A stretch of DNA of 49,855 bases from Candidatus Pelagibacter sp. (GTDB taxonomy: Bacteria > Pseudomonadota > Alphaproteobacteria > Pelagibacterales > Pelagibacteraceae): contig NZJW01000001.1 of NCBI GenBank assembly GCA_002692055.1, forward strand, positions 1-49,855. The letters run 5' to 3'. Each line of letters begins with the position of its first letter. The first letter of the stretch is position 1. A program made the translations under genes and the position numbers. The notes below the pieces were generated by a model that saw nothing but the letters and a program-made list of their open reading frames with translations, had not been told where the DNA came from and searched no databases. Positions 20,129 to 43,991 of this stretch are shown one piece after another.

Positions 20129-20132
20129 CTTA

Positions 20133-27259: not shown

Positions 27260-28267
27260 ATGACAAAAATTATAGCAGAAGTTGGTATAAACCATAATGG
27301 AAGCTTATCAATTGCAAAAAAATTAATAGATAATGCTAAATCTGCAGGAGTGGATATAGTTAAATTTCAAACTTTTGTTCCTGAAGAAGTAGTTATTGCA
27401 AATTTAAAATTAGCACCATACCAAAAAAAAAATTTACCTCTAAATAAACAGCAATCAATGTTAAATATGATTAGTAAGTATTTTCTTAATTTTCAAGACC
27501 AAAAAAAACTTTTTAATTATTGTAAAAAAAAAAAAATTCAGTTTTTATCATCTCCATTTGATAAGCAGAGTGCCGAGTTTTTACTAAAAGAATTAAAATT
27601 AAAAGTAATTAAAATACCAAGTGGGGAGATAACAAATTACCCATTACTAAAATATATTTCAAAATTTAATGTAAAAATAATATTGTCTACGGGAATGAGT
27701 AGATTGGATGAAATAAAAAATGCGATTAATATTTTAAAAAAGGGTAGAAAAATAAAATTAAAAAATATTTGCATTCTCCATTGTCATACTGATTATCCTA
27801 CTAAATTGAGCGACTGTAATCTTAATTCAATTAATTTTATAAGACGTCACTTAAATGTTAAAGTCGGCCTTTCTGACCATACAAATTGTAATAATGCAGC
27901 TTTTTTAGCCGTTGCCATGGGCGTTGAATACATTGAAAAGCATATAACATTAAATAAAAATATGAAGGGTCCTGATCATAAGGCTAGTCTTGAAACTAAA
28001 GATTTAATTGACCTAGTCAGAATGGTGAATAAAGCTAAACAAATTTTAGGTACATTTCATAAAGAACCAACAAAAAATGAATTAAAAAATATTATTTTTG
28101 CTAGAAAATCAATAGTTGCATCAAGGCCTATAAAAAAAGGAGAAATGTTTAGTGAAGAAAACATGACAACTAAAAGGCCTCTTTTGGGAAAGCCAGCATC
28201 TGATTGGAAAGAATATATTGGTAAAAAAGCTAAAAAAAACTTTAAGAATGATGAGTTTATAAAATGA
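27260..28267 (+). CDS. legI: Nonulosonic acid synthase (LegI/NeuB family)
   Basis: 335 aa. The NeuB barrel starts with IAEVGINHNGSLSIAKKLID, and has VKFQTFVPEEV, KIPSGEITNYPLL, STGMSRLDEI, LHCHTDYPT, GLSDHTNCNNAA and EKHITLNKNMKGPDHKASLE. The C-terminal SAF (antifreeze-like) domain, residues about 275-335, contains RKSIVASRPIKKGEMFSEEN. It condenses a 6-carbon N-acyl amino sugar with phosphoenolpyruvate to make a 9-carbon nonulosonic acid such as legionaminic acid. Length is normal. It sits in the expected order with LegG downstream, overlapping by 4 bases. Confidence 0.94.
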   Translation: MTKIIAEVGINHNGSLSIAKKLIDNAKSAGVDIVKFQTFVPEEVVIANLKLAPYQKKNLPLNKQQSMLNMISKYFLNFQDQKKLFNYCKKKKIQFLSSPFDKQSAEFLLKELKLKVIKIPSGEITNYPLLKYISKFNVKIILSTGMSRLDEIKNAINILKKGRKIKLKNICILHCHTDYPTKLSDCNLNSINFIRRHLNVKVGLSDHTNCNNAAFLAVAMGVEYIEKHITLNKNMKGPDHKASLETKDLIDLVRMVNKAKQILGTFHKEPTKNELKNIIFARKSIVASRPIKKGEMFSEENMTTKRPLLGKPASDWKEYIGKKAKKNFKNDEFIK

Positions 28268-29412
28268 AAATCTTGGTAGCTAGTAGTTCAAGAGCAGATT
28301 ATGATTTGCTTCATCCGATAGTATTAGAACTTAACAAAGTAAAAAAAATTAAATGTGAATTTTTAATCACAGGTTCACATTTTAGTAAGTTACTTTCAAC
28401 AAAACTAAATAAAAATACAGATAATAAAATTGTAAAAAAATACCTAAATATTTTAAATAAAAAAAAAACTAACACTGAGTTAATTTTTTCTAATGCAATA
28501 AAAAAATTTAGTGGGTATTTAAATAGAAATAGACCGGATATTTTGATGGTACTTGGCGATAGATTTGAAGTTTTTTCCTTAGTAATTTGTGCAACTTTTA
28601 AAAAAATTCCAATTGCACATATTTCTGGAGGAGAACTCACCGAAGCCAGTATGGATGATTCTATTAGGCATAGCATTACTAAGCTCTCTCACTTTCACTT
28701 CGTTGCGAATGATATATATAAAAAAAGAGTTATTCAGTTAGGTGAAAATCCTAATCAAATTTTTATTACTGGTGGCACAGGTATTGATAATATAAAAAAT
28801 TTAAATTTTTACAGCAAAAATCAACTAGAGAAAATTTTATGTTTTAAATTTAAAAAGTATAATTTTATCCTAACTTATTTACCTGTAACTTATCTAAACA
28901 ATCAGACTTCACATAAAAAGGAAATAAATACTATAATATCAGCACTAGCTAGTTTTAAGGATTGTAATATTTTTATAACTTATCCCAATCTTGATGAAGG
29001 AAGTAGAGAGATAATTAAAGAAATAAAAAATTTTAAAAAAAATAATAAGAATATTAAAGTTTTTAAAACCTTAGGAAAAGCAAGATATTTATCTATTTTA
29101 AAACATTTTGACTGTCTTATAGGAAACTCATCTAGCGGTATAACCGAGGCTCCTTATTTGGGTATTCCAACAATTAATATTGGAGACAGACAAAAGGGAA
29201 GGTTAAAATCCAAAAGTATAGTTGATTGCAATCCAAATCGAATGGAAATTATTAAAAAAGTAAAAAAAATACTTAATAAAAAATTTAGACATAAAATACA
29301 AAATCAAAAAACCTATTACGGCAGTGGTAATTCAAGTAAAAAAATTGTAAATATAATTAGAAGAATTAGTTTAAAACATATTCTTAATAAAAAATTTTAT
29401 AATATTAAATGA
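28264..29412 (+). CDS. legG: Hydrolysing nucleotide-sugar 2-epimerase (LegG/NeuC family)
   Basis: 382 aa, GT-B-like fold. Diagnostic segments are SSSRADYDLLHPIV, VLGDRFEVFSLVICAT, HISGGELTEASMDDSIRHSI and GNSSSGITEAPYLGIPTI. NeuC and LegG invert C2 and release the nucleotide from UDP- or GDP-linked N-acetylated sugars, giving the free mannose-configured sugar used by LegI. The start overlaps the LegI stop in ATGA. The gene is complete. Confidence 0.93.
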   Translation: MKILVASSSRADYDLLHPIVLELNKVKKIKCEFLITGSHFSKLLSTKLNKNTDNKIVKKYLNILNKKKTNTELIFSNAIKKFSGYLNRNRPDILMVLGDRFEVFSLVICATFKKIPIAHISGGELTEASMDDSIRHSITKLSHFHFVANDIYKKRVIQLGENPNQIFITGGTGIDNIKNLNFYSKNQLEKILCFKFKKYNFILTYLPVTYLNNQTSHKKEINTIISALASFKDCNIFITYPNLDEGSREIIKEIKNFKKNNKNIKVFKTLGKARYLSILKHFDCLIGNSSSGITEAPYLGIPTINIGDRQKGRLKSKSIVDCNPNRMEIIKKVKKILNKKFRHKIQNQKTYYGSGNSSKKIVNIIRRISLKHILNKKFYNIK

Positions 29413-30524
29413 GTCAGAAAGAAATTTTTTGGTGTAAAAATTGTGTAGTTATGTCTACAAGACCCAGAACTACGTTTGATGAGAGAGGCTTTTGTTCAGC
29501 TTGTCAATGGTCTGAAGAAAAACAAAATTTAAATTGGAAGCAAAGGGAAAAATTATTAGAAAATCTGTTAAACGAATATAGATCAAATGGAAAAAAATAT
29601 GATTGTATTACAACTGTAAGTGGAGGTAAGGATGGTTCATATGTTTCTTATAATTTAAAACATAAACATAAGATGAATCCATTGGCTGTTACTATCAGAC
29701 CTATAATGGAGACTGAATTAGGAATTAAAAATCTAACATCTTTTGTTAATAGTGGCTATGATCATATTCATGTCACGCCTAACGCTGAAGCTATGAGAAA
29801 ACTAAATAAAATTGGCTTAATAGAAATGGGTTTTCCTTACTATGGTTGGTTAATCGCAATACACTCTGCAGTTTTAAGAGTGGCTGTTCAGTTTAATATT
29901 CCATTAGTTTTTTATTCTGAGGATGGTGAGGTTGAATATGGTGGTGATGCAAAATATAAAAATGACGGATTGTACGGTGTAGATTATATGATTTCCCGAT
30001 ACTTAGAATCGGGTTACGAAAAAGTGTTAAAAGAAGCTAATTTAACGGAATTAGAAAAATATTGGTTCAAAATGCCAGAGCCAGAAGAGTTAAAAAAATT
30101 GAAGCTGACTGTTACACATTATGGTTTTTATGAAAACTGGGATCCTTATAGAAACTACGAAATTGCAAAAAAATTTTGTGGGCTACAAGAAAATGAAGAT
30201 TTAAATGAGGGAAGTTATACAAATTTTGCTCAAACAGATCAAAAAATTTACGCGTTACACGTATACTTCATGTATTTAAAATTTGGGTTTGGAAGAACAA
30301 CTCAAGATGCAGGCATAGATGTAAGACGTGGAGCAATGACACGTGAACAGGCTGTCCAATTAGTAAAGATGTATGACAATATTTATCCCGAACAATTATT
30401 TGAAGAATATTGTGAATATTATCAAATGGATATGAAAGATTTTTTAGATAATATTGATAACTGGGCCAATAAAGATCTATTTGAGAAAAAAAACATTTGG
30501 ATACCAAAGTTCGAAATTAAATAA
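29409..30524 (+). CDS. N-acetyl sugar amidotransferase (PseA/WbpG/PtmG type)
   Basis: 371 aa. Two Cys pairs at the N-terminus, WCKNCVV and FCSACQW, suggest a zinc ribbon, followed by the PP-loop ATP pyrophosphatase motif TVSGGKDGSYVSY (about residues 67-79). The family uses ammonia and ATP to turn an acetamido group on a sugar or nonulosonic acid into an acetamidino group. HisH- and HisF-like genes follow and would supply ammonia from glutamine, as in Pseudomonas O-antigen (WbpG with HisH2/HisF2). It shares an ATGA overlap with LegG. This implies an amidinated nonulosonic acid. Confidence 0.92.
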   Translation: MSQKEIFWCKNCVVMSTRPRTTFDERGFCSACQWSEEKQNLNWKQREKLLENLLNEYRSNGKKYDCITTVSGGKDGSYVSYNLKHKHKMNPLAVTIRPIMETELGIKNLTSFVNSGYDHIHVTPNAEAMRKLNKIGLIEMGFPYYGWLIAIHSAVLRVAVQFNIPLVFYSEDGEVEYGGDAKYKNDGLYGVDYMISRYLESGYEKVLKEANLTELEKYWFKMPEPEELKKLKLTVTHYGFYENWDPYRNYEIAKKFCGLQENEDLNEGSYTNFAQTDQKIYALHVYFMYLKFGFGRTTQDAGIDVRRGAMTREQAVQLVKMYDNIYPEQLFEEYCEYYQMDMKDFLDNIDNWANKDLFEKKNIWIPKFEIK

Positions 30525-30529
30525 TAAAA

Positions 30530-31159
30530 GTGAAAAAAAAAATTCATATTCTTGACTGTGGATTCGGTAATATTGAGTCCGTAAAAAACGCTTTAGATTA
30601 TTTAGAAATTGATAATCACATTTTAGATAATCTTAACAATATTAAAAATATATCGCATTTAATATTACCTGGAGTTGGTAATTTTAACACATGTATAGAT
30701 ATACTCAAAAAAAAAGAATTGATACATCAAATAAAAAATTACGTAGAAAAGAAAAATTTTTTACTGGGCATTTGCGTAGGCATGCAATTATTATTTGAAT
30801 ATGGTGATGAGGGTGGAGGTACTGAAGGTATTAAGTTATTTAAAGGTAACTGTAAAAGACTGGAAAACATCAATAATTTACCTTTACCACATATTGGATT
30901 TAATGTCGTAAAAAAACCAAATAGCTTAATGTGGAAAGATATAAATGAAAACTCAAATTTTTATTTTGTACATGAATATGGTATTGATGAAAATCAACTA
31001 AAAGGAGAAGCAGATATTAAATATGGTGTTACAAAATATACAAATAAATTTATTTCTTACGTAGAAAATAAACACGGGAATATTTTTGGTGCTCAATTTC
31101 ACCCCGAAAAAAGTCAATCAAACGGTCTAAAATTTTTAAGAAATTTTTCAATTTTATGA
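30530..31159 (+). CDS. hisH: HisH-type glutamine amidotransferase for acetamidino sugar synthesis
   Basis: 209 aa, GTG start at 30530 just after the amidotransferase stop. It is a class I glutaminase: the nucleophile Cys in LGICVGMQLLFEYGDEG (about residues 78-94) and the His-Glu pair in FGAQFHPEKSQ near the C-terminus are present, and LILPGVGNF makes the oxyanion region. It hydrolyses glutamine to ammonia, channelled through the HisF-like partner encoded next (ATGA overlap). Context with the sugar amidotransferase makes a role in glycan synthesis far more likely than in histidine synthesis. Confidence 0.92.
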   Translation: MKKKIHILDCGFGNIESVKNALDYLEIDNHILDNLNNIKNISHLILPGVGNFNTCIDILKKKELIHQIKNYVEKKNFLLGICVGMQLLFEYGDEGGGTEGIKLFKGNCKRLENINNLPLPHIGFNVVKKPNSLMWKDINENSNFYFVHEYGIDENQLKGEADIKYGVTKYTNKFISYVENKHGNIFGAQFHPEKSQSNGLKFLRNFSIL

Positions 31160-31950
31160 TTAATAAACGCATTATTTTTTCACTTTTATATGCCGATGGC
31201 TTTTTTCATTTAAGTAGAAATTTTAGGTTACAAAAAGTTGGAAATGTAGAGTGGATAAAAAATAATTACGGTTTTGGGGAGACCTGTAATTTTATTGACG
31301 AGTTAATAATAACTTTTGTAAAAAGAAATCCAACATTTGAGGACTATATTCAATATTTTGATGATATAAATAAACTAAGAAAGAAAATATTTGTTCCCAT
31401 TATACTTGGAGGAAGAATAATGAGCTTCAAAAATGTTAAAAACTGTTTTTTAAACGGTTCAGATAAAGTTCTGATAAATACTTTATTTTATAACGATCCA
31501 GGAAAAATTACAGAGTTTTCAAATTATTATGGTAAGCAGGCAATATCTTTAATGGTTGATTATAAAATTATAAATGAAAAAGATAAGTTGAAATTTATAT
31601 CTTATAAAAACTGCGGTCAAGATGTTGGCGAGAATATTGATGAAAAGTTTATTAATAAAATCAATAATTTGCCATGTGGAGAAGTGATATTTAACTCAAT
31701 TGATAATGACGGAAATGGATCAGGTATTAATCTGGATATAGTTAAATTGCTAGCAAATATTAAAAAACCATTGCTAATGATGGGTGGTGCAGGAAAACCT
31801 GAGCATATAAGTAAAACTTTAAAATTAGAAAAAGTGAGCGGCGTAGTTACAGCCAATTTATTTAATTTTCTTGGCACTGGATTAAAAAAAGCTCGAGAAG
31901 AATGTTTTGTGAGTGGAATAAAACTTCCAATTTTTGATGAAGAAATATAA
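31156..31950 (+). CDS. hisF: HisF-like subunit for acetamidino sugar synthesis
   Basis: 264 aa, (beta/alpha)8 barrel related to imidazole-glycerol-phosphate synthase subunit HisF. VPIILGGRIMSFKNVKNCF, GSDKVLINTLFYNDPGKI and GGAGKPEHI follow the HisF phosphate-binding pattern, and MVDYKIIN keeps one active-site Asp. The residue that aligns by eye with the N-terminal catalytic Asp of HisF (KRIIACLD in Thermotoga) is Leu here (KRIIFSLL). That fits paralogues that serve only as ammonia channels for WbpG-type enzymes. It overlaps HisH by 4 bases. Confidence 0.88.
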   Translation: MINKRIIFSLLYADGFFHLSRNFRLQKVGNVEWIKNNYGFGETCNFIDELIITFVKRNPTFEDYIQYFDDINKLRKKIFVPIILGGRIMSFKNVKNCFLNGSDKVLINTLFYNDPGKITEFSNYYGKQAISLMVDYKIINEKDKLKFISYKNCGQDVGENIDEKFINKINNLPCGEVIFNSIDNDGNGSGINLDIVKLLANIKKPLLMMGGAGKPEHISKTLKLEKVSGVVTANLFNFLGTGLKKAREECFVSGIKLPIFDEEI

Positions 31951-31961
31951 TAAAATATTTT

Positions 31962-33008
31962 ATGAGATCTTTTTTAGTTAAAAAAAAAAATACTCTTAAA
32001 GAGGCATTAAAATCAATAAATAGTAATGGCAATAAGTGCGTTGTGGTCGTTGATGAAAAAAATAAGCTTTTAGGAACACTTAGTGACGGTGATATAAGGA
32101 AAGCTATAATAAAAAAAGTAAATATAAATTCAAGTATTGAAAAATATTTTAATAAAAAATCTTATTTTATTAACAAAAAAAATACTAAAAATCGTCATCA
32201 CATTCAAAATCTATTTTTAAAGAAACATATAGATTTGATACCTGAAGTTGATGATCAAGGAGTAGTAAAAAAAATTATTACATGGTCTAATTTTTTTGGA
32301 AAAGAAAAAAAATTTAAAATAAAAAAAACACCAGTAATTATCATGGCAGGAGGTCAAGGAAAAAGACTAAAACCGTTTACAAATATTTTACCTAAACCTT
32401 TAATACCCATTAAGCACAAACCTGTTATTGAATATATTTTGGATAAATTTACATCTAATGGTTATGATAATTTTTATATCACCATTAATTATAAATCACA
32501 AATTATTCGGTCGTATTTCAATGACATAAAAAAATATAAAAGAATTAAATTTTACGATGAAAAAATACCTAGAGGGACAGTAGGATGTTTGAGTGATATG
32601 AATTTACCAAATTGTAAAAATTTTTTTATCACAAATTGTGATATTATTTTAGATATTGACTATGCTGATTTAATGAAATTTCATACTAAAAATAAAAATC
32701 ATCTTACACTTGTTGCTTCAGCCAAAGAATTCAAAATCCCTTATGGAGTTTGTCAGCTAAACGACAATGGCTCGCTAGAAAAAATAAAAGAAAAACCATC
32801 ATATGATTTCTTAGTAAATGCTGGATTATATTTATTGAATTATGACATTAAAAAAATGATACCTAAAAATAAATTTTTTGATCTAACTGATCTATTAAAT
32901 ATTTTGATTAAAAAGAAGTATAAAATTGGAGTCTACCCTGTAAATGATACACAATGGATAGATATTGGACAATGGAGTGAATTTAAAAAAGCATTAGAAA
33001 ATCTGTAA
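31962..33008 (+). CDS. ptmE: CBS-domain sugar-1-phosphate nucleotidyltransferase (PtmE-like)
   Basis: 348 aa. Residues about 1-115 form a CBS pair (VVVVDEKNKLLGTLSDGDIR, LIPEVDDQGVVKKIITW). Residues about 120-348 form a nucleotidyltransferase: VIIMAGGQGKRLKPFTNILP, PKPLIPIKHKPVIEYILDKF and the metal-site ITNCDIILDIDY. This domain order matches Campylobacter PtmE, which makes GDP-glucosamine for legionaminic acid synthesis. Finding it with LegB/LegC/LegG/LegI supports a GDP-linked pathway here. The CBS pair may sense nucleotides. It starts 11 bases after the HisF-like gene. Confidence 0.88.
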   Translation: MRSFLVKKKNTLKEALKSINSNGNKCVVVVDEKNKLLGTLSDGDIRKAIIKKVNINSSIEKYFNKKSYFINKKNTKNRHHIQNLFLKKHIDLIPEVDDQGVVKKIITWSNFFGKEKKFKIKKTPVIIMAGGQGKRLKPFTNILPKPLIPIKHKPVIEYILDKFTSNGYDNFYITINYKSQIIRSYFNDIKKYKRIKFYDEKIPRGTVGCLSDMNLPNCKNFFITNCDIILDIDYADLMKFHTKNKNHLTLVASAKEFKIPYGVCQLNDNGSLEKIKEKPSYDFLVNAGLYLLNYDIKKMIPKNKFFDLTDLLNILIKKKYKIGVYPVNDTQWIDIGQWSEFKKALENL

Positions 33009-33908
33009 GTGAAAAAAAATTTTTTAATCTATGGTTATGGAAATATTGGAAAAAAACATCATAGATTGTTAAAAAAATATACTAACTCAAATATTTATAT
33101 TATCTCTGCGAGGAAAAATAAAAATTTTTTTTTACCTAAAGAACTAAGTAAATTAAAATTTGTTAAATTCCAACTAATTATAATAGTAAACGATACAAAT
33201 TTACATTTACCCACATTAATAAAAATTAGAAAGTACTTCAAGTCCACTCCAGTTTTAGTAGAAAAACCTTTACTTATTAGCAATAAAATTAATCATATTA
33301 ATAAAAATATTTTTATAAACTTTAATTTAAGACTACATCCTTTAATAAAAAAGTTAAAAACACTAGTTAATAAAGATAAATTCTTTTATTGCAATATTAC
33401 CTGTTTTTCTTTTTTACCTACATGGAGAAAAAAAAATTATAAGCATTTTTATAGTTCTTCTGCAAAAAGAGGAGGTGGTGTTTTGTATGATTTAAGTCAT
33501 GAATTTGATTTAATGAATTTTTTATTTGGAAAATATAAAGTTACTCATTCAGTAAATAAAAAAATTTCGAATTTAAGTATTAATTCTGATGATTACGTTC
33601 AAGCCGAAGGGCAATTTTATAAAAAAAGTAAATATTTTAATATAACACTTTCTTATTTTAGCAGGATACAAAAAAGAGAGATTTATTTAGAGGGAAAAAA
33701 TATATCAATACATGCTTGTTTATTAAATAATAGAATAACAATTATAAATAATAAAAAAAAGAAAATTTTAAATTTTCAAAAATTTAACCTTGAAACAACT
33801 TTTGAAGATACTTACAAATGTATACTAAATAAAAAAAGTCATTTATTATGCAATATCGATGATTCAGTATTTTTAACGAATATTTTTAAGACGATTAAGG
33901 GTAAATGA
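33009..33908 (+). CDS. Gfo/Idh/MocA family oxidoreductase (PtmF-like)
   Basis: 299 aa, GTG start immediately after the preceding stop. The Rossmann start FLIYGYGNIGKKHHRLLKKY and VLVEKPLLI (EKP motif) identify the family, and RGGGVLYDLSHEFDLMNFLF is the conserved catalytic-region segment. Its place next to the PtmE-like gene matches the ptmE-ptmF arrangement of Campylobacter legionaminic acid loci, where the function is thought to concern precursor supply. A second, broken member of the family lies at 35375. Substrate not established. Confidence 0.84.
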   Translation: MKKNFLIYGYGNIGKKHHRLLKKYTNSNIYIISARKNKNFFLPKELSKLKFVKFQLIIIVNDTNLHLPTLIKIRKYFKSTPVLVEKPLLISNKINHINKNIFINFNLRLHPLIKKLKTLVNKDKFFYCNITCFSFLPTWRKKNYKHFYSSSAKRGGGVLYDLSHEFDLMNFLFGKYKVTHSVNKKISNLSINSDDYVQAEGQFYKKSKYFNITLSYFSRIQKREIYLEGKNISIHACLLNNRITIINNKKKKILNFQKFNLETTFEDTYKCILNKKSHLLCNIDDSVFLTNIFKTIKGK

Positions 33909-33912
33909 TTAT

Positions 33913-34614
33913 ATGAAAGTATTATGTACAATATGTGCCAGAGGTGGTTCAAAAGGGCTAAAAAATAAAAATATAAAAAAGTTACTAGGTAGTCCCTTAA
34001 TTTGTCATACAATAAAGCAAGCACAGGATGCTAAAATATTTCATAATATAGTTGTGAGTACAGATTCTAATAAAATACAAAAAATTGCTAAAAAGTTTAG
34101 AGTTTCTAGCTGGTATTTGAGGTCAAAAAAATTATCTAATGACTATTGTTCAAAATTATCAGTTATAAATGATACTTTGATAAAATCTGAAAAAAAATAT
34201 GGTATTAGATATGATTATATATGTGATTTAGATGTTACATCTCCGTTAAGGAAAATAAATGACATCATCATATCATATAAAAAAGTTAAAAAAAAAAATA
34301 TACAAAACCTAGTATCTGTTTGTTTCTCAAAAAAAAATCCATTTTTTAATATGATTATTAAAAAAAAAAAGGGCTATGAGATTGTTAACTCGTATAAAAA
34401 ATACCTAAGAAGACAAGATGCACCTTTATGTTACGACGTGAACGCATCTATATATTTTTGGAAAAGATCCGCATTAATTAATAATAAAATGCTAATAGGG
34501 CCTCAAACAAACATACATATTATGCCACAAAATAGATCTATTGATATTGATACTAAAGATGATTTTGAATATGTAGAATATTTGTTAAAAAAAAATGGAA
34601 AAACTAGACTTTAA
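33913..34614 (+). CDS. legF: CMP-nonulosonic acid synthetase (LegF/NeuA family)
   Basis: 233 aa. The N-terminus CTICARGGSKGLKNKNIKKL is the CTP-binding motif of acylneuraminate cytidylyltransferases, and YICDLDVTSPLRKINDII contains the metal-binding Asp residues. VCFSKKNPFFN and RRQDAPLCYDVNASIYFW also match the family. It activates the nonulosonic acid with CTP for transfer by a glycosyltransferase. It follows the Gfo/Idh gene by 4 bases and overlaps the next SDR by 20 bases. Confidence 0.92.
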   Translation: MKVLCTICARGGSKGLKNKNIKKLLGSPLICHTIKQAQDAKIFHNIVVSTDSNKIQKIAKKFRVSSWYLRSKKLSNDYCSKLSVINDTLIKSEKKYGIRYDYICDLDVTSPLRKINDIIISYKKVKKKNIQNLVSVCFSKKNPFFNMIIKKKKGYEIVNSYKKYLRRQDAPLCYDVNASIYFWKRSALINNKMLIGPQTNIHIMPQNRSIDIDTKDDFEYVEYLLKKNGKTRL

Positions 34615-35368
34615 AAATAAAAAAATTTTTGTAATTGGAGGGTATGGGTTGATTGGAAATGCCGTTGCAAATTTGTTAAGTTACAATGGGGCCGAAGTTT
34701 TTATTTTAGAACAAAATAAGTTAAAAGTAAATAACTTCAATTTTTGTAAGTTTAAAATTACTGATCAGCTTTCATCCATAGAAAAGAATTTAGAAAAAAT
34801 TTTTAAAACTCATGGTGTTCCACATGGTATGATAAATTGTTCTTATCCTAAAAATAAACTTTGGAGTAAAAGTTCTTTTAAAAATATTAAACCTTCCGGC
34901 TTTAACGAAAATATTGATTTACACCTTAAATCATACACTTGGATTGCAAAACTTTTTGCTGAGAAAATGAAATTAAAAAAAATTAAAGGAAAAATTGTTC
35001 AGTTAACATCTATATACGGAATTCTGGGGCAGGATTTAGAAGTCTATAAAAATACAAGAATGGACGAAAATATCATTTATCCATTAATCAAAGGTGGTAT
35101 TTCAAGTTTCACTAAACAATTAGCCTCATACTTTGGCAAACATCAAATATCTATTAATAATCTTTGTCCAGGTGGCGTTTTAGAAAATAGAAAAAATAAG
35201 AAAAAACAAGAAAATAATTTTTTAAACAATTATAAAAAAAAGGTTCCATTTAAAAGATTGGCTAAAAACGAGGAAATTGCTAAAGTTGCTGTTTTCTTAC
35301 TTAGTAACTACTCCGATTACATAACTGGTCAAGATATCATTGTAGATGGCGGTTGGAGCATTATCTAA
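34595..35368 (+). CDS. ptmA: Short-chain dehydrogenase (PtmA-like)
   Basis: 257 aa, classical SDR. FVIGGYGLIGNAVANLLSYN is the cofactor loop, IVQLTSIYGILGQD has the catalytic Ser, YPLIKGGISSFTKQLA holds the YxxxK, and the C-terminus YITGQDIIVDGGW is the standard SDR ending. Similar genes (ptmA) lie in Campylobacter legionaminic acid loci beside ptmB, ptmE and ptmF, as here. The reaction is uncertain but is thought to concern an amino-sugar precursor. It overlaps the CMP-synthetase gene by 20 bases. Confidence 0.86.
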   Translation: MEKLDFKNKKIFVIGGYGLIGNAVANLLSYNGAEVFILEQNKLKVNNFNFCKFKITDQLSSIEKNLEKIFKTHGVPHGMINCSYPKNKLWSKSSFKNIKPSGFNENIDLHLKSYTWIAKLFAEKMKLKKIKGKIVQLTSIYGILGQDLEVYKNTRMDENIIYPLIKGGISSFTKQLASYFGKHQISINNLCPGGVLENRKNKKKQENNFLNNYKKKVPFKRLAKNEEIAKVAVFLLSNYSDYITGQDIIVDGGWSII

Positions 35369-36318: not shown

Positions 36319-37893
36319 ATGAAAGATGAAATAATATCAGGTCACAATATTCACCAAAGTAAAAATTATGATAAGGATTATTATTTATTCTTAAAAAAAA
36401 TTGTAGAATTAAATACAGAGCAAATAAATTATTATGCATCTAAAAGGTTGAAAAAAAAATTTGGTAACAAATATTACAATACTTTTAAACAATTTTTTTG
36501 TTCAAATATAAATAGTAAAAATTTTAATACAGAATATTTTATATCTATTTCACGCGGAAAAAAAATTATTTATCCATTGCCTTTAATTATTACAAATTTG
36601 TTTCAGGTAGGGAACATCGAATTTAATAAATCATTTTCATCAATCTATTTTTTTTTTAAATGTCTCAAAAATCTTATTAAATCTGTAGTAAAAATTATTT
36701 TGATATTTTTCGAAAAAGACAACTTCCCAGTTAGGGAACAGAATTCAATATTTTTTGCAGATTTAAAAATTTATTTTTTTCCTGTAAATAAAAAAGATAA
36801 TGATTTTAGTTGCATTGGTTGGTTTTTAAAAAACGAGATTAAAAAAACTGATATTAGTTTCATACTGCATTCTGAAAAAAGATTTAATGATAACTCTATT
36901 TATAAAGATAAAAAATTTTTATATAGAAAAAATTTGATACCGCCAATTAATAATTTTTTTTCAAGATTATTATTTTTAAAGCAGAGTTGCACTGAATTAT
37001 TCTTCTGTTTTTTTAATTTATTAGTAGGAAAATGGATTGATTGTTTATTCATAGAGCATGTAATAGATTTTGTAAAACTGAATAATATTGAACAAAAAAA
37101 ATTACCTTCAAAATATTATTTTTCATCATCATATGAGCTGGTTAGACCTCTTTGGACTTATTTTTTAAAAAATTCCAAATGTGTGTATTTTAATTATGCT
37201 GCTTCAATCCCTGGCTTCTTTTATAATGAAAGGAGAGATTATGATTTTTATAATAGGTTATTATATTGGGATGAAGAATTGCATTGGTCAAAATATTTTG
37301 TAAGTTATTTGTCAAAAATAAAAAAAAATAAAAAAAATATTAGATTAGTCAATTATATATATGGGCAAGATTCAAATAAGAAAATTAACTTGAATTTTAA
37401 TGAAAACAGAAAAAAAATTTCTGTATTTGATATTACTCCTCCCTTTGAAAAAAATAGTGTAACTAATAACATTACAAACTTAAATTATCATAGTGCACAA
37501 AATATAATTAAGTTTTTAGATGATATTTGTTTTTATGCTAAAGAAATGAATTATGATATTTTATGGAAACAAAGGTGGGATACGACAAATTACACTTATC
37601 ATAAAAATAAAAAAATTCATGATAAAACATATATTGAATATTCAAAAAATTTAGTTCTTAGAGAAAACGTTTACAAGTTTCATTCATATATTCCTCCCTT
37701 AAAGCTCATAAATATTTGTGATTTATGCATTTCCCTTCCTTTTACGAGCACTTCTTTAATTGCTGACAAGTTTAAAAAAAAAAGTATATTTTACGATCCG
37801 ATGTCAATTTTAAGTAGTAGTGATATAGCATTACAAGGTGTAAGGTTAATATCTGGCCCAGAACAATTAAAATTATATTTGAAGAATTTGTAA
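36319..37893 (+). CDS. Polysaccharide biosynthesis PFTS-motif protein
   Basis: 524 aa. The C-terminal segment LCISLPFTSTSLIADKFKKK (about residues 470-489) carries the PFTS motif that names a family found in Leptospira and marine bacterial polysaccharide loci, followed by FYDPMSILSSSDIALQGV. Upstream, KYYFSSSYELVRPLWTYFLK and FNYAASIPGFFYNERRDY look like a GT-B-type fold. It may be a glycosyltransferase, but no reaction is known to me. There is one hydrophobic patch near residues 112-135. It starts 2 bases after the broken oxidoreductase and shares a TAATG with kdsA. Confidence 0.75.
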   Translation: MKDEIISGHNIHQSKNYDKDYYLFLKKIVELNTEQINYYASKRLKKKFGNKYYNTFKQFFCSNINSKNFNTEYFISISRGKKIIYPLPLIITNLFQVGNIEFNKSFSSIYFFFKCLKNLIKSVVKIILIFFEKDNFPVREQNSIFFADLKIYFFPVNKKDNDFSCIGWFLKNEIKKTDISFILHSEKRFNDNSIYKDKKFLYRKNLIPPINNFFSRLLFLKQSCTELFFCFFNLLVGKWIDCLFIEHVIDFVKLNNIEQKKLPSKYYFSSSYELVRPLWTYFLKNSKCVYFNYAASIPGFFYNERRDYDFYNRLLYWDEELHWSKYFVSYLSKIKKNKKNIRLVNYIYGQDSNKKINLNFNENRKKISVFDITPPFEKNSVTNNITNLNYHSAQNIIKFLDDICFYAKEMNYDILWKQRWDTTNYTYHKNKKIHDKTYIEYSKNLVLRENVYKFHSYIPPLKLINICDLCISLPFTSTSLIADKFKKKSIFYDPMSILSSSDIALQGVRLISGPEQLKLYLKNL

Positions 37894-38768
37894 TGAAAAA
37901 AATAAAAATTGGATACGGAACTGTAAATAAATTTGAAATAAGCAACGCTTCCTCTTTAAGCTTTATAGGTGGGCCGTGTGCTATAGAAAGTAATGATCAT
38001 GCTCTTTATATGGCAGGAAAAATTGATGAGATATGTAAAAAGTTAAAAATAAATTGGATATACAAATCATGTTACGATAAAGATTGTAGATCTTCGCTTA
38101 ATAGTTTTCATGGTGTTGGAATAGAAAAAGGTCTTGAAGTTTTATCAAACGTAAGAAACGAGATATCAGTACCAGTTATTTCAGATTTTTCAAACCCTGA
38201 CTGGGCAGAACAAACTGGTAGTGTTTGTGATCTTGTTCAAGTTCCAGCATATTTATGTAGACAAACATCAATTTTGAAAGCGGCAGCTAAAACAAAAAGA
38301 CCAATATTATTAAAAAAAGGGCAATTTATGAGTCCTTGGAATATGAAAAATTCTGTGAGAAAGATTGAAGAGTCGGGTAATGATCAAATCATTTTAGCTG
38401 ATAGAGGAACTTTCATGGGATACAATATGTTAGTTAACGATATGAAATCATTCCCAATAATGTCAGAAACTGGATATCCGGTATGCTTTGACGCCACGCA
38501 CTCTGTACAATTGCCTACATCTATGGGAAATGTGTCTGGAGGACAAAGAGAATTCATTCCTGCATTAGTCCGTGCTGCAGTAGCATGTGGGATACAGGTG
38601 CTTTTCATGGAGGTTCATGACAATCCGAAAAAAGCACTATCTGATCCCAATACAGTTTTAAATATAAAATATTTAGAAGAAGTCTTGGAACAGGCATTAA
38701 TTATTAATGATGCAAGAAACAAAATTTTGACTAAGATTGGAGAAGATAAAGTTCATTTAAATGATTAA
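37893..38768 (+). CDS. kdsA: KDO-8-phosphate synthase family protein (KdsA-like)
   Basis: 291 aa. SFIGGPCAIESNDHALYM, VCFDATHSVQLPTSMGNVSGG and GGQREFIPALVRAAVACGI are conserved KdsA motifs. The Cys of GGPC marks the metal-dependent class. The signature usually written KANRSS reads KDCRSS here (KSCYDKDCRSSLNSF), so the Asn that contacts substrate is Cys. KdsA condenses arabinose 5-phosphate with PEP to KDO 8-phosphate. The altered motif could mean a different aldose acceptor and a KDO-like ulosonic acid. A CBS-only protein (8-base overlap) and a KdsB-like gene at 43236 complete the module. Confidence 0.87.
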   Translation: MKKIKIGYGTVNKFEISNASSLSFIGGPCAIESNDHALYMAGKIDEICKKLKINWIYKSCYDKDCRSSLNSFHGVGIEKGLEVLSNVRNEISVPVISDFSNPDWAEQTGSVCDLVQVPAYLCRQTSILKAAAKTKRPILLKKGQFMSPWNMKNSVRKIEESGNDQIILADRGTFMGYNMLVNDMKSFPIMSETGYPVCFDATHSVQLPTSMGNVSGGQREFIPALVRAAVACGIQVLFMEVHDNPKKALSDPNTVLNIKYLEEVLEQALIINDARNKILTKIGEDKVHLND

Positions 38769-39159
38769 AAACAAAGATATAATGATTAAGGTTGGAGCTT
38801 TTCCAATTGTAAAAGAGAATACTATTTTTAAAGAGGCTATTGAAAAAATGTCAGAGTTCAATCTTGGTATTTTATGCATAGTTGATAATAAATTTGAGTT
38901 AAGAGGTATTATCACAGATGGAGACTTGAGAAGAATGTTATTAAATATTCAAAAACCATTTTCAGCCTTTTTTGTTGATGATATCATTAAGCATTCAAAA
39001 AAAAATCCCATTACATCATTTCCTGACGAAGATATTAAAAAAACATTAATTAAAATGAATTTATCAAAAGTATGGGATATTCCGATTATAGAAAATCATA
39101 AATTAGTCGGGCTAGTTCATTTGCATCCAGCAATTAAAAATTTAGTATCAAAAATATAA
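38761..39159 (+). CDS. Stand-alone CBS-domain pair protein
   Basis: 132 aa consisting of two CBS motifs: VKENTIFKEAIEKMSEFNLG leading to LRGIITDGDLRRML, and FPDEDIKKTLIKMNLSKVWD leading to KLVGLVHLHPAI. The sequence resembles the C-terminal CBS half of arabinose-5-phosphate isomerase (KdsD), but there is no SIS isomerase domain. It overlaps kdsA by 8 bases and ends directly before a methyltransferase gene. It may regulate KdsA or a separate isomerase by binding a nucleotide, or be a remnant of a former kdsD. No stop-containing SIS remnant is seen next to it. Confidence 0.84.
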   Translation: MIKNKDIMIKVGAFPIVKENTIFKEAIEKMSEFNLGILCIVDNKFELRGIITDGDLRRMLLNIQKPFSAFFVDDIIKHSKKNPITSFPDEDIKKTLIKMNLSKVWDIPIIENHKLVGLVHLHPAIKNLVSKI

Positions 39160-40233
39160 ATGAGAAAAGACTATATTTATGATAAACATGTTGAGTATTT
39201 CATTTCTAAATGTGAAGGTTTTTTAAGCCAAAGTTCAGATAAAAAAATAGATCAGAAACACGAAAATCTTTTAGAAGAGTTTAAAAAAATTTATAAAAAA
39301 GATAAGAAAAGTTTTATCAATAATTTAAGAAACTGGTCTCATCATGGAGATTTATCATGTCCTCCCCAAATTACATTTATGCATATAAAATATTTAGGCT
39401 TTATAAAAACTATTTTTACGTTTATTAAAAAGAAAATAAAATTTTTTGATTTAAAATTTTTCAATCAATCATTTTTTGATGATATAGAAATTTTAAAAGT
39501 AACTGGATCGTTAGAAATTTTAAAAAAAAATCCAGTTCATAAAACACCACAGTGTAATGATTTTTATTATTTTGAAAAAACATCATCAAATTATAGATGG
39601 AATCGATATGCTTATTTATTAAACAAAATTAGACAGGAAAAGTTAATTACAGATAATTGTAATTTTGTTGATATCGGTAGCTTTTACGGTGGTTTTCAAA
39701 GTTATTTAAAAAACTTTTATCCAAAAGTTAATCTAATTCTATTAGATTTTAACCATCAATTATGTAGAAGTTATGTTTTTTTAAAAAATTTATTTCCTGG
39801 CTCACAACATACTTTACCTGATGAAATTATCGACTTAGACTTTTTAAATAAAAATCAAAATCAAATTGTATATTTGCCGATAGAAAAAAGAAGTTTATTG
39901 AAAAAATTAAAAATTCAATTAACTACTAACTTTTTCTCTTTTGGTGAGATGAAACGTGAGATGTTTAGTGAATATTTTAAATTAATAGACCATTCAAAAT
40001 ATATTTATTCAGTAAATAGGTTTGTAAGTTCACCTTTTTTTGAAAAAACATATGATTCCGACTTAGATGTAAGGGATTATTTAAAAAATAATTATAGCAC
40101 TCTTTATTTTGACATATTTCCAATGCATCATTATTTAAATATTAAGAGAAAACTATTAAATAGATATGCAAATAGACCAATAGGCTCACCCTATTTTGAA
40201 TTAATACTAAAAAAAAATGAAAACAGGCGATAA
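39160..40233 (+). CDS. Putative sugar O-methyltransferase
   Basis: 357 aa. A SAM-binding region NFVDIGSFYGGFQSYLKNFY (about residues 165-184) with acidic LILLDFNHQL after strand 2 identifies a class I methyltransferase. The large N-terminal part (SHHGDLSCPPQITFMHIKYL) and the segment SFGEMKREMFSEYFKLID resemble the putative sugar O-methyltransferase family often found in O-antigen clusters. It likely methylates a glycan sugar, perhaps a terminal one. It overlaps the next methyltransferase gene by 17 bases. Confidence 0.75.
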   Translation: MRKDYIYDKHVEYFISKCEGFLSQSSDKKIDQKHENLLEEFKKIYKKDKKSFINNLRNWSHHGDLSCPPQITFMHIKYLGFIKTIFTFIKKKIKFFDLKFFNQSFFDDIEILKVTGSLEILKKNPVHKTPQCNDFYYFEKTSSNYRWNRYAYLLNKIRQEKLITDNCNFVDIGSFYGGFQSYLKNFYPKVNLILLDFNHQLCRSYVFLKNLFPGSQHTLPDEIIDLDFLNKNQNQIVYLPIEKRSLLKKLKIQLTTNFFSFGEMKREMFSEYFKLIDHSKYIYSVNRFVSSPFFEKTYDSDLDVRDYLKNNYSTLYFDIFPMHHYLNIKRKLLNRYANRPIGSPYFELILKKNENRR

Positions 40234-40930
40234 TATAAAAAGTAAAAATGCAAGTTGGTCCTTCAGAGGAGAAGTGTTTAAAAATTTTGACAAACATATT
40301 CAGAAATCGGTCCCAATGTATCAAGAATGTAGAAGTTTGTTTCTTTTTTTATCTGACTTTTTTATACAAGAAAACTCTAAAATTTATGATTTAGGATCAT
40401 CAACAGGAACTTTTTTAAATATGATATCAAATCGTCACGATTTAAAGAAAAAAAAAATTAAATGTATTGGTATTGATAGCGTTGAAGAGATGGTGAAATA
40501 TTCAAAAAGAAATAATAGCAAAAATCAAAACATACTTTTTAAAAATTATAATATTTTAAAACAAAGTTTTAAAAATAGCTGTATAATTAGTTCATTTTAT
40601 ACAATACAATTTATCTCGCCGTCTAAAAGGCAATTTTTGATAAATAAAATTTATAAAGATCTAAATTGGGGTGGTGCATTTTTTATGGTTGAGAAAGTAC
40701 GCGGTCCAGATGCAAGATTTCAGGATATTTTAAATCAATTTTATATAGATTACAAAATATCAAAAGGTTATTCTGCTAATGAAATAATTTCTAAATCAAG
40801 ATCGTTAAAAAGTGTTTTGGAGCCATTTTCTTCTAAAGGAAATTTAGATATGCTAAAAAGATCAGGCTTTAAAGATATTACAACAGTATTTAAATACGGA
40901 AATTTCGAAGGTTTTTTGGCAATAAAATAA
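40217..40930 (+). CDS. CmoA-like class I SAM-dependent methyltransferase
   Basis: 237 aa. The start NASWSFRGEVFKNFDKHIQ and KSVPMYQECRSLFLFLSDFF recalls the N-terminal region of CmoA, and the SAM motif is KIYDLGSSTGTFLNMI, followed by GIDSVEEMVKYSK. MVEKVRGPDARFQDILNQFY is the later substrate segment. CmoA makes carboxy-SAM for tRNA modification. This copy lies inside a glycan cluster, overlapping its neighbour by 17 bases, so it may instead serve sugar methylation or supply an unusual donor. A CmoB partner is not seen. Confidence 0.75.
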   Translation: MKTGDNIKSKNASWSFRGEVFKNFDKHIQKSVPMYQECRSLFLFLSDFFIQENSKIYDLGSSTGTFLNMISNRHDLKKKKIKCIGIDSVEEMVKYSKRNNSKNQNILFKNYNILKQSFKNSCIISSFYTIQFISPSKRQFLINKIYKDLNWGGAFFMVEKVRGPDARFQDILNQFYIDYKISKGYSANEIISKSRSLKSVLEPFSSKGNLDMLKRSGFKDITTVFKYGNFEGFLAIK

Positions 40931-41719
40931 ATGATTTCTAAAAAAATAAATAAAGAAATAAAAAAAAAATTAATAGATAGAAAAACTATTTTTGGAGGGT
41001 GGATGTCTTTTTCAGACCCAAGTATAGCAGAAATGTTTTCATCTATTAATTTAGATTTTGTTGCAATTGATATGGAGCATACATCTATTTCTTTAGAGCA
41101 AGCAAAAAATATAATTTCAAATTGTAATTTATATAATAAACCCTGTTTTCCAAGACCATCATCTTACGATAAGAGTAATTTAAAACCTATTTTAGACATT
41201 GGTTCAAATGGTTTAATTGCAACTACTATAGAAAGTTGTGATGATGTTGAGAACTGCTTAAATAATTTAAAATACCCACCAATTGGTAATAGATCATATG
41301 GAGTGAATAAGGCTCAAAATTATGGATTAGCAGAAAGAGAATATTTTAAAAATTGGAATAATTATTCAAGTTTAATCTTACAGATTGAAACAGTAAAAGG
41401 TCTGAATGATTTAGAAAATATTTTGGTGAATTTTAAAAAATATATTGATGGTATAATGATTGGTCCATACGATCTATCAGGATCTATGGGTATTCCCGGT
41501 AATTTAAATAGTCCAAAAATTATAGAAGCCGAAAAATATATTATTAATTTATGCACAAAAAACAAGATAAGCTGTGGCACTCAATTATCAAGTTTTGATA
41601 ATAAAATAATAAAAAACAAAATTAAATTTGGATATAATTTTTTAATACTTGGTTCAGATTTGTTTATTTTAAAAAATTGGTGCTTAGAAACACAAAAATT
41701 AATACAAAAAGTAAAATGA
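40931..41719 (+). CDS. HpcH/HpaI family aldolase
   Basis: 262 aa. FGGWMSFSDPSIAEMFSSIN, FVAIDMEHTSISLEQAKN, ILQIETVKGL (the metal-binding Glu) and IMIGPYDLSGSMG (the metal-binding Asp) are the canonical motifs of this class II pyruvate aldolase family, at normal length. Members cleave or form 2-keto-3-deoxy acids from pyruvate and an aldehyde. Beside a KdsA variant and SDRs, it may help make or recycle an ulosonic acid precursor. It directly follows the CmoA-like gene and overlaps the next SDR in ATGA. Confidence 0.88.
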   Translation: MISKKINKEIKKKLIDRKTIFGGWMSFSDPSIAEMFSSINLDFVAIDMEHTSISLEQAKNIISNCNLYNKPCFPRPSSYDKSNLKPILDIGSNGLIATTIESCDDVENCLNNLKYPPIGNRSYGVNKAQNYGLAEREYFKNWNNYSSLILQIETVKGLNDLENILVNFKKYIDGIMIGPYDLSGSMGIPGNLNSPKIIEAEKYIINLCTKNKISCGTQLSSFDNKIIKNKIKFGYNFLILGSDLFILKNWCLETQKLIQKVK

Positions 41720-42502
41720 AAAAATACATAAAACAATATTTTGACTTTAGATCGTCTCTTAAAAACAAAGTTGCTGTAATTACAGCAGGTGGCGGACACT
41801 TGTGTAGTGTCTTCGCTTTAGCGCTAGTTAATCTTGGTTGCAAAGTAATTATAGTGGATATACGTGAGAAAAAATTAATAGATATAAAAAAAAAAATTAA
41901 TAATAAAAATTTAATTTTTTATACTTGTAATTTATTAAATAAATACGATGTCGACAAATTATCTTTACAAATCTATAAAAAATTTAAAAAAATAGACATT
42001 CTAATAAATGGTGTTGGAATTAATTCTCCTAAAAAGTTCGAACAAATATCGAAATCCGATTGGAATACTGTATTTGAAAGCCATTTGTTGAGTACATTAT
42101 TTGGCTGTCAATCATTTGGAAAATATATGAAAAAAAAAAAATAAAGGTTCAATTATCAATATTTCATCTGCTTCTGCAGGTCCTCCATTATCTAAAGCAT
42201 TTGCTTATTCTGCAGCAAAAGCAGGTATCAAAAATTTAACGCAAAATTTAGCTAGAGAATGGGCAAAATATAATATTAAAGTAAATTGCATAAGACCTGG
42301 TTTTTTCCCTACAAAATGGAATGAAAAAAATTTTCTAGATAAAAAAAGGGTAAAAAAAATCATGGAACATACTCCAATGAAAAGATTTGGTAAACCCATA
42401 GAATTGAGCGGAGCGATTATCTGGTTGTCATCTGATAGTTCATCATTTGTAACAGGTAGCGAAATTGTAATCGATGGCGGTTTCTCATGTATGACAATTT
42501 AA
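41716..42502 (+). CDS. Short-chain dehydrogenase, frameshifted at a poly-A run
   Basis: The ATG at 41716 overlaps the aldolase stop (ATGA), which I prefer to an upstream start at 41677. VAVITAGGGHLCSVFALALV is the cofactor loop and ILINGVGINSPKKF the following strand. The straight reading ends at 42144 in the A12 run at 42130-42141. Dropping one A gives GSIINISSASAGPPLSKAFA, the catalytic YSAAK, and the SDR tail GSEIVIDGGF, ending at 42500-42502. Restored length is about 262 aa. It oxidises or reduces a sugar or keto acid. A second SDR follows with a 16-base overlap. Confidence 0.84.
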
Positions 42503-43239
42503 ATTCAAAAAAAAGTATAATTATTACTGGCGGGAACAAGGGTATTGGATTAGAAATTACAAAAAACTTCTTAGAAAAAAATTATATAGTAATTGTTGGC
42601 GGTAGAAGCCATTTAAAACTAAAAAATAAAAATTTATTTTTTGTCAAATGCGATTTGACTAAGTATTCATCGCATGAAAAATTAGCAAATATTGCACTTA
42701 AGAAATCATCAAATTTAGTTGGTTACATTAATAACATAGGAATTTCAGAATGGCGAAGTATTGAGAAAGTAGATAATAAGTTTTTAAATAAAATGATCGA
42801 TACAAATTTAGTTAGTTATTTTTGGGGATGCAAGGTTGCCAAAAAATATATAAAGAAAGGCTCAATAGTTAATATTTCTAGCATCGCTGGAAAGCGAGGA
42901 TCAAAAAATAATTCCGTTTATTCCGCTTCTAAATTTGCAGTTAATGGATTAACTCAATCTCTAGCTAAAGAATTTGGATCTAAGAGCTTAAGAGTGAACG
43001 CGATATGTCCTGTATTAATTAAAACTCCAGGATTAATTAGGGCGTTGAGAAAGAAAGACTCACCAGGCTATCCAAATGTGAATTCTTTTTTAAATAAATT
43101 CAAAAAAAATAATGTTGCATTACAGGATTACCCAAAAGCTAAAGATGTCGGTGATTTATGTGTATTTTTAATATCAAATAAGTCAAATTCAATAACCGGC
43201 CAATGTATAAATTTAGACTCTGGTGTTTTCCCACAGTGA
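42487..43239 (+). CDS. Short-chain dehydrogenase/reductase
   Basis: 250 aa, classical SDR. IIITGGNKGIGLEITKNFLE is the TGxxxGIG cofactor motif, GYINNIGIS the NNxG-type motif, SIVNISSIAGKRGSKNNSVY contains the catalytic Ser, followed by YSASK (YxxxK), and SITGQCINLDSG is the usual ending. It overlaps the preceding SDR by 16 bases and the KdsB-like gene by 4 bases (GTGA). A two-SDR arrangement next to KdsA/KdsB homologues suggests redox adjustment of an ulosonic acid or its precursor. Confidence 0.88.
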   Translation: MYDNLNSKKSIIITGGNKGIGLEITKNFLEKNYIVIVGGRSHLKLKNKNLFFVKCDLTKYSSHEKLANIALKKSSNLVGYINNIGISEWRSIEKVDNKFLNKMIDTNLVSYFWGCKVAKKYIKKGSIVNISSIAGKRGSKNNSVYSASKFAVNGLTQSLAKEFGSKSLRVNAICPVLIKTPGLIRALRKKDSPGYPNVNSFLNKFKKNNVALQDYPKAKDVGDLCVFLISNKSNSITGQCINLDSGVFPQ

Positions 43240-43991
43240 AAATTGGTTGCATTATACCCGCACATTTAAAATCTGTGCGATTCCCAAAAAAGATTTTATT
43301 TAAAATTAAAGGATTGGAGATGATAGAGCATGTTCGAAGAAGAGCTTTATTATCATATCATTTACAAAATAAAGTTTACGTTGCTTCAGGTGACTCTCAA
43401 ATTCTAAGTATAATAAAAAAAAACAATGGTAAAACAATTAAAACTTTTAAAAATCATCTTAATGGTATGTCCAGAGTTGCCGAAGCAATTAAAAAGACTG
43501 ATTTTACTCATGTAATTATTTTGCAAGGAGATGAACCACTAATATATCCAGAATATATTAATAAATTTATTCAGCAAATTAAAAAAGATAGAAAAAATAA
43601 CATTGATAGTTGGAATTTAATTTCACCAATTAATAATTTTAAAGATCTTAAAAAAAAATCCTTTGTAAAAACAAAATTAAGTAAATATAATCACGTAAAA
43701 AGTTTAGATAGAGTCTATAATGAAAAAAATAAAAATAAAGTATATAAAATTTTAGGTTTAATTGCATTAAAGAGAAAAGCGTTATTTAAATTAATTAGGT
43801 TAAAACCAACTATTAATGAAAAAAAAAAATATATTGAGCAATTAAGGATTATAGAAAATAATATGACTTTAAAAGGTGTAAAAGTACAACTGGCATTACC
43901 ATCCATAAACGAAAAAAAAGACTTAAAAAAAGTCTTAGAAGTATTGTGTATTAACAAAGTTCAAAAAAGAATATTTAACAAAATTTTTTAA
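43236..43991 (+). CDS. kdsB: KdsB-like CMP-ulosonic acid cytidylyltransferase
   Basis: 251 aa with the GTG start at 43236, which gives a GTGA overlap with the SDR before it. The ATG at 43203 would add 11 residues unlike the family. The N-terminus KIGCIIPAHLKSVRFPKKIL is a variant of the KdsB motif IPARxxSxRLPGKxL, with His for Arg. GMSRVAEAIK and VIILQGDEPLIYPEYI are standard, the latter with the metal-binding Asp. It activates KDO or a similar acid with CTP. The departures from the norm support a KDO-like rather than standard KDO substrate. Complete, with a Lys-rich end. Confidence 0.86.
   Translation: MKIGCIIPAHLKSVRFPKKILFKIKGLEMIEHVRRRALLSYHLQNKVYVASGDSQILSIIKKNNGKTIKTFKNHLNGMSRVAEAIKKTDFTHVIILQGDEPLIYPEYINKFIQQIKKDRKNNIDSWNLISPINNFKDLKKKSFVKTKLSKYNHVKSLDRVYNEKNKNKVYKILGLIALKRKALFKLIRLKPTINEKKKYIEQLRIIENNMTLKGVKVQLALPSINEKKDLKKVLEVLCINKVQKRIFNKIF

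Follow-up and report, generated by a model that had tools for sequence, protein, structure and literature searches.

Which sugar acid is made by the module that runs from a KdsA homologue to a KdsB homologue in a 49,855-nucleotide stretch of Candidatus Pelagibacter sp. DNA (assembly GCA_002692055.1, contig NZJW01000001.1; the whole stretch is called the window below)? The KdsA variant of the window, labelled KdsA*, is a paralogue of 3-deoxy-D-manno-octulosonate 8-phosphate (KDO8P) synthase, and such homologues are annotated by default as makers of 3-deoxy-D-manno-octulosonic acid (Kdo), the hallmark sugar of lipopolysaccharide (LPS). An earlier interpretation of the letters by themselves (the sequence-only reading) had proposed a KDO-like acid built from a different aldose phosphate. 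Support for that proposal is indirect and comes from the distinct clade of KdsA*, from changes in its pocket for arabinose 5-phosphate (A5P), from the absence of an isomerase and from the host's own standard Kdo genes. The best explanation as stated, which is considered fairly probable, is a horizontally spreading cassette that makes a CMP-activated 3-deoxy-2-ulosonic acid other than ordinary Kdo. The cassette is widely transferred, and its synthase is probably misannotated as Kdo-8-phosphate synthase; no description of a KdsA*/HpcH/KdsB cluster was found in the open-access subset of the literature.

KdsA* carried KDCRSS, as the sequence-only reading had noted, and scored 326.4 bits against TIGR01362, over the 314-bit cut-off for KDO8P synthase; the clade as a whole exceeds the annotation cut-off. 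In a tree, 72 KdsA* sequences were monophyletic and sister to 31 canonical KDO8P synthases (support 1.0, branch 0.60). The two groups share the fold family, the residues of the phosphoenolpyruvate (PEP), metal and phosphate sites and a full-length alignment at about 45–50% identity. Metal ligands (Cys, His, Glu, Asp) and the PEP/phosphate lysines and arginines were conserved across the 72 sequences, and the RSS phosphate motif that follows the changed residue pair was unaltered. KDCRSS, SDFS, VPAY and LPTSMG in KdsA* stand against KANR[ST]S, TDVH, TPAF and LPGGQG in the canonical enzymes; KdsA* also differs in occurring without the A5P isomerase and in having a fixed CBS partner, described below. 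The canonical hallmarks KANR[ST]S and TD[VI]H were replaced by KDCRSS or KDSRSS and by SDFS-type sequences in all KdsA*, and KANR[ST]S and His100 were present in 31/31 canonical sequences. Fixed differences, in window numbering, were S60C, A64D, N65C, R73H, H100S, F120Y, L146M, A147S, D150N, S174F, G209T, G210S, P253N and N254T.

Every KdsA* copy differed from the canonical enzymes around the A5P pocket. The Asn of KANRS is said, by the Parker group, to recognise the C2 hydroxyl of A5P. Pocket positions were mapped onto the Neisseria meningitidis enzyme by residue spacing, window residues 65 and 120 corresponding to Asn57 and Phe112 in its numbering and residues 209–210 to loop L7 (PMC6650799). 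In that enzyme Pro110, Phe112 and Leu113 lie in the A5P pocket, hydroxylated ligands touch Asn57 and Arg58, and loop L7 has a role in A5P binding (PMC6650799). A changed pocket combined with retained PEP and phosphate residues would be expected of an enzyme whose substrate had changed in its aldose part.

When KdsA* was used as query against 84,980 species genomes, 74 loci at 59–73% identity were obtained. These were carried mostly by marine bacteria and spanned Alpha-, Gamma- and Betaproteobacteria, Bacteroidota, Prochlorococcus, Leptospiraceae, Nitrospirae, Magnetococcales and Latescibacteria. The motif was KDCRS[SA] in nearly all of them, KDSRS[SA] in five and KDGRSS in one; KANRS was found in none of the 74. 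A CBS-only gene followed KdsA* in 71/74 loci, the other three being a contig edge (L043), a partial match (L078) and a different arrangement (L076). HpcH, the aldolase type of the cassette (HpcH*), was present in 40 loci and was followed in most of these by SDR1, SDR2 and KdsB in that order, SDR denoting a short-chain dehydrogenase/reductase; loci without HpcH mostly had the short form KdsA*-CBS-KdsB. A KdsC-like phosphatase of the haloacid dehalogenase (HAD) family was encoded in 16 loci, and an isomerase gene in no KdsA* cassette. Pairwise distances of six proteins from 31 loci were correlated (Mantel r 0.72–0.92, permutation p 0.001), as joint transfer of the whole set would predict; organismal ancestry could add to this correlation and cannot explain the close relatives in different phyla. 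Its recurrence across unrelated phyla, in dozens of loci, and the correlated gene distances show that the gene set is not a chance pattern. A phage or plasmid origin of KdsA* was considered and set aside, as tblastn gave no close relative, all those found being under 60% identity. Directly upstream of KdsA*, loci from Bacteroidota and elsewhere encoded a pair of ~265-aa proteins (L023:6355-7970, clusters c16 and c12; relatives in about ten loci) for which Pfam gave no confident match.

KDO8P synthase needs A5P, the product of the KdsD/KpsF isomerase, and carrier genomes were therefore scored for Kdo genes. Most of the 45 genomes with KdsA* also encoded a canonical KdsA. Among 30 genomes examined further, 13 had KdsA* while canonical KdsA, the KpsF SIS domain and WaaA were all absent (G003, G004, G006, G008, G010, G016, G020, G021, G027, G031, G035, G040 and G044; two Bacteroidetes, two Devosia, two Flavobacteriaceae, one Balneolaceae, five Prochlorococcus and one Latescibacteria). 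One more, G012, was without canonical KdsA and KpsF and had WaaA. The cleanest comparison came from within Prochlorococcus, where the isomerase was found in 13/14 genomes with other KDO8P synthases versus 0/5 with KdsA* (Fisher p 5 × 10−4). Those 14 synthases all had KANR[ST]S and TD[VI]H, and the isomerase was usually encoded no more than a few kilobases away from kdsA. Cyanobacterial LPS is described as being without Kdo (PMC4515613). Prochlorococcus loci L119 and L121-L128 had a further type of KDO8P synthase, divergent and found with KpsF, in which KANR[ST]S was kept and the L7 region read HSLQxR in place of HSVQxPGG; it is possibly a capsule-type synthase.

These data bear directly on the alternative that KdsA* is an ordinary KDO8P synthase tolerating a changed pocket, in a cassette that adds Kdo, or a Kdo derivative made by the SDRs and the aldolase, for a capsule, much as kpsF and kpsU serve E. 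coli group 2 capsules. Such a synthase would account for the score over the TIGR01362 cut-off, for the conserved RSS motif, metal and PEP residues, and for the full Kdo pathway also present in many carriers. It is nevertheless judged unlikely, given that no cassette contains an isomerase, that the 13 carrier genomes are without both the A5P isomerase and the canonical Kdo genes, that in Prochlorococcus the isomerase accompanies KANRS and not KDCRSS, and that the motif is uniform across phyla, which indicates selection rather than drift.

The assembly measures 871 kb, is 86% complete and includes the window as contig 21. A search of this genome for a standard kdsA, kdsB and kdsD, as the sequence-only reading had suggested, found all three on other contigs together with waaA. 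The second KdsA, on contig 9, had KANRTS and a Pfam score of 242 bits, the variant reaching 209, so that the lack of any other kdsA, which the same reading had named as part of the evidence against itself, does not apply. Another KdsB-like gene was on contig 14 and WaaA on contig 7; a full-length KpsF/KdsD on contig 3 scored 177 bits, under the 203.7 cut-off, and covered profile positions 1–267. With its own Kdo genes elsewhere, the host does not use KdsA* to replace the housekeeping Kdo route. The closest KdsA* matches among named genomes were in Pelagibacteraceae single-cell genomes. Across 347 genomes of the same order, some KdsA match was present in 305, a close variant in two among the matches listed, and the others, again among the matches listed, were at canonical-level identity.

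The CBS-only protein (132 aa) matched KpsF/KdsD solely over the CBS half at the C-terminus (profile positions 155–268), and family scans found no SIS isomerase domain in it. A role as part of an isomerase was ruled out on this ground. The proposed relation to the regulatory half of KdsD thus stood, whereas the proposed replacement of a full isomerase did not, as there is no SIS domain and a full KpsF-type isomerase is encoded elsewhere in the genome. The CBS-only protein may instead be a regulatory partner of KdsA*.

The HpcH/HpaI aldolase and the two SDRs named earlier were all present, with the correction that SDR1 is frameshifted. Membership of HpcH in its family was clear (PF03328, 65 bits versus a cut-off of 25), and Asp47, His50, Arg75, Glu153 and Asp181 were invariant in 41 sequences. 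It shares the catalytic residues and fold family of the pyruvate aldolases HpaI, GarL and RhmA, and differs from them in belonging to a CMP-sugar operon, not to a catabolic operon, and in scoring far below their equivalog cut-offs (118/109/93 bits versus 369/407/441). Asp48, which is typical of NAD use, was invariant in SDR1, and SDR2 had Arg40 in 97% of sequences, typical of NADP use, with Ser-Tyr-Lys kept in both; the nearest models of SDR1 were D-mannonate oxidoreductase and 2-keto-3-deoxygluconate 5-dehydrogenase. An NAD/NADPH pair suggests oxidation and then re-reduction of a hydroxyl. HpcH* was found in 3/151 Prochlorococcus genomes, all three KdsA* carriers, and in the fourth carrier the contig stops right after the CBS gene. 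Among 396 Flavobacteriales genomes there was one close HpcH match, in a KdsA* carrier, which is too few for statistics.

The KdsB-like protein scored below the equivalog cut-offs (TIGR00466, 89 bits versus 155.2; NF003952, 155 versus 193). In place of IPAR, the hallmark of CMP-Kdo synthetases at the nucleotide-binding N-terminus, it had IPAH (IPAHLKSVRFPKK), in agreement with the variant reported before. His10 of this motif occurred in 27/34 HpcH-containing loci versus 0/25 others (p 1 × 10−10, a value inflated by related sequences), a linkage that is consistent with an altered substrate at the last step. KDCRSS and IPAH, previously treated as one set, are both real and are separable, KDCRSS being clade-wide and IPAH tied to the HpcH-SDR1-SDR2 extension.

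The following pathway is proposed. KdsA* would join PEP to an aldose phosphate that is not A5P. Ribose 5-phosphate, the C2 epimer of A5P and present in every cell, is the favoured candidate and would give a C5-epimeric 3-deoxy-octulosonate 8-phosphate. The phosphate would be removed by the KdsC-type HAD phosphatase where the locus has one and otherwise by a housekeeping enzyme. SDR1 (NAD type) would then oxidise and SDR2 (NADPH type) reduce, so that a hydroxyl is remodelled, with HpcH making or re-making a pyruvate-derived carbon–carbon bond. KdsB with IPAH would form the CMP donor, and a GT-B enzyme (the PFTS-type protein here, a ~500-aa family elsewhere) would transfer the sugar to a surface glycan. 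The CBS protein may tune KdsA* by sensing a nucleotide, for which CMP and the CMP-sugar are candidates. The product is tentatively taken, at rather less confidence than the best explanation above, to be an ulosonic acid not yet described. It would be either an octulosonic acid that starts from a non-A5P aldose phosphate, such as ribose 5-phosphate, and is remodelled by the SDRs, or a di-ulosonic acid of greater length to which KdsA* and then HpcH each contribute a C3 condensation, with the stand-alone CBS protein as feedback sensor either way.

The longer product, taken by itself, would require two C3 condensations, with the KdsA* ulosonate oxidised by an SDR to an aldehyde at its terminal carbon and HpcH adding pyruvate before CMP activation. 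Co-occurrence of HpcH* with KdsA* and the intact aldolase active site speak for it. So do distant HpcH relatives (34–37% identity) in three other Flavobacteriales genomes, which adjoin KdsB or NeuA cytidylyltransferases; no KdsA or NeuB was found in the stretches fetched around them (L113, L114 and L115), suggesting that the aldolase builds ulosonic acids itself. This placement points to a biosynthetic role for the aldolase type and makes a double C3 condensation conceivable. Secondary alcohols, however, are the usual substrates of SDRs, SDR1 is similar to reductases of keto-sugar acids and the longer product has no direct evidence, so that this route is rated as quite improbable. A D-2-hydroxyacid dehydrogenase was also encoded near the aldolase and cytidylyltransferase in L113, L114 and L115, an arrangement that possibly represents an aldolase-first route to CMP-ulosonic acids.

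Several points weigh against a non-Kdo product. The score of KdsA* still exceeds the KDO8P-synthase cut-off, and a non-homologous source of A5P is possible. Five further genomes with KdsA* as their only KdsA carry KpsF; all five also have WaaA, and the isomerase is thereby explained by Kdo-LPS. The isomerase-less genomes are metagenome-assembled genomes or single-cell assemblies from which genes could be missing. Incompleteness weakens single absences and not the overall pattern, and is unlikely to have produced the joint absence of three Kdo genes in 13 genomes. The steps assigned to the SDRs and HpcH and to the CBS protein draw on family chemistry. Finally, SDR1 is frameshifted in this assembly, in a run of 12 A at about 42130–42141, its remainder continuing in another frame to 42502. 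The broken frame could mark a relic module decaying in this strain, or an assembly artefact, a reading that is very improbable when no other module gene is interrupted, the break falls within a homopolymer like other apparent breaks in the window, and SDR1 is intact in relatives. Breaks at or near homopolymers also occurred at about 3990–4055 and 19778–20133, where GmhA-like and RmlD-like open reading frames end early; taken together, such frameshifts suggest assembly indels or phase variation.

The putative non-Kdo cassette is placed in a long polysaccharide region (Table 1), just after a nonulosonic set at 27260–35368, and its description as a second ulosonic-acid module is fair. The first module is real, with a complete-looking NeuB/NeuC/LegX/PtmF/NeuA/PtmA-like gene set (names from inspection of the translations rather than from a family scan) accompanied by hisH/hisF-like and PseA-like amidotransferase genes. 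The gene list given earlier for the second module held for its named parts and had overlooked the two methyltransferases between the CBS and HpcH genes.

Table 1. Genes of the KdsA* module in the window.
Feature	Position	Strand	Evidence
PFTS-motif polysaccharide protein, predicted GT-B, candidate transferase	36319..37893	+	TIGR04417 97 bits, cut-off 100
KdsA*, KDO8P-synthase paralogue	37893..38768	+	TIGR01362 326 bits; monophyletic clade; clade-specific positions
CBS-only protein, tandem CBS pair	38761..39159	+	Pfam CBS; TIGR00393 positions 155-268 only
Putative sugar O-methyltransferase, NanM type, variable cargo	39160..40233	+	TIGR04371 97 bits, cut-off 44
CmoA-like S-adenosylmethionine (SAM) methyltransferase, variable cargo	40217..40930	+	TIGR00740 154 bits, under cut-off 193
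HpcH/HpaI-type pyruvate aldolase	40931..41719	+	PF03328; active-site residues intact
SDR1, D-mannonate-oxidoreductase/KduD-like, NAD-type (Asp48), frame broken	41716..42502	+	
SDR2, FabG/glucose-dehydrogenase-like, NADP-type (Arg40)	42487..43239	+	
KdsB-like cytidylyltransferase (IPAHLKSVRFPKK), GTG start	43236..43991	+	NF003952 155 bits (cut-off 193); PF02348

The CmoA-like and NanM-type genes were found as a pair in several polysaccharide loci (the window, L012, L027 and L077), the NanM-type O-methyltransferase being present in few relatives. Arg199 of Escherichia coli CmoA binds the carboxylate of carboxy-SAM. It was missing in three of the four CmoA-like proteins of these loci and retained in L027; the region had Ser, Met or Thr/Lys in the window, L012 and L077. 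Carboxymethylation by the pair was dropped as the leading idea on account of the three losses.

Two candidate transferases were modelled with AlphaFold2. The PFTS-motif protein, encoded directly upstream of KdsA* in the window, gave a GT-B fold (predicted local distance difference test score, pLDDT, 85), as did a ~500-aa family without a Pfam match (pLDDT 92). That family follows KdsB in more than 20 loci (e.g. L023:14674-16167) and has the conserved motifs TYEGHxWERL, IRLHP and YRGST. Fold matches of both models were generic (UDP-GlcNAc 2-epimerases, many glycosyltransferases and one polysialyltransferase) and pointed to no particular donor class. Either protein could be the transferase.

The occurrence of KdsA* in organisms without a recognisable source of the Kdo precursor means that Kdo annotations of these proteins are probably wrong. 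If confirmed, the cassette would give a well-studied enzyme family a new specificity in carbon–carbon bond formation, and would mean a new acidic surface sugar on abundant ocean bacteria (SAR11, Prochlorococcus, SAR116 and marine Flavobacteria), where such sugars may influence phage attachment and grazing.

Three known systems offer comparisons. Group 2 capsule clusters of E. coli contain kpsF and kpsU as accessory Kdo genes and thus, like the window, place ulosonic-acid genes in a polysaccharide cluster besides the housekeeping copies; their kpsF has a SIS domain, and they are not known to have HpcH, an SDR pair or a second KdsA. The Kdo8N pathway of Shewanella (KdnA, KdnB and KdsB) modifies Kdo before CMP activation by a dedicated cytidylyltransferase, a sequence of events resembling that proposed here; no KdnA/KdnB-type aminotransferase or iron-type alcohol dehydrogenase was found in the conserved core of the cassette, which has SDRs and an aldolase instead. 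Legionaminic and pseudaminic acid clusters (NeuB, LegX/PtmE, PtmF, PtmB and PtmA), one of which lies just upstream in the window, follow the same CMP-ulosonic acid logic and have a CBS pair fused to a nucleotidyltransferase, but they use a NeuB-type synthase and make C9 acids, whereas the cassette described here is built around a KdsA-type synthase.

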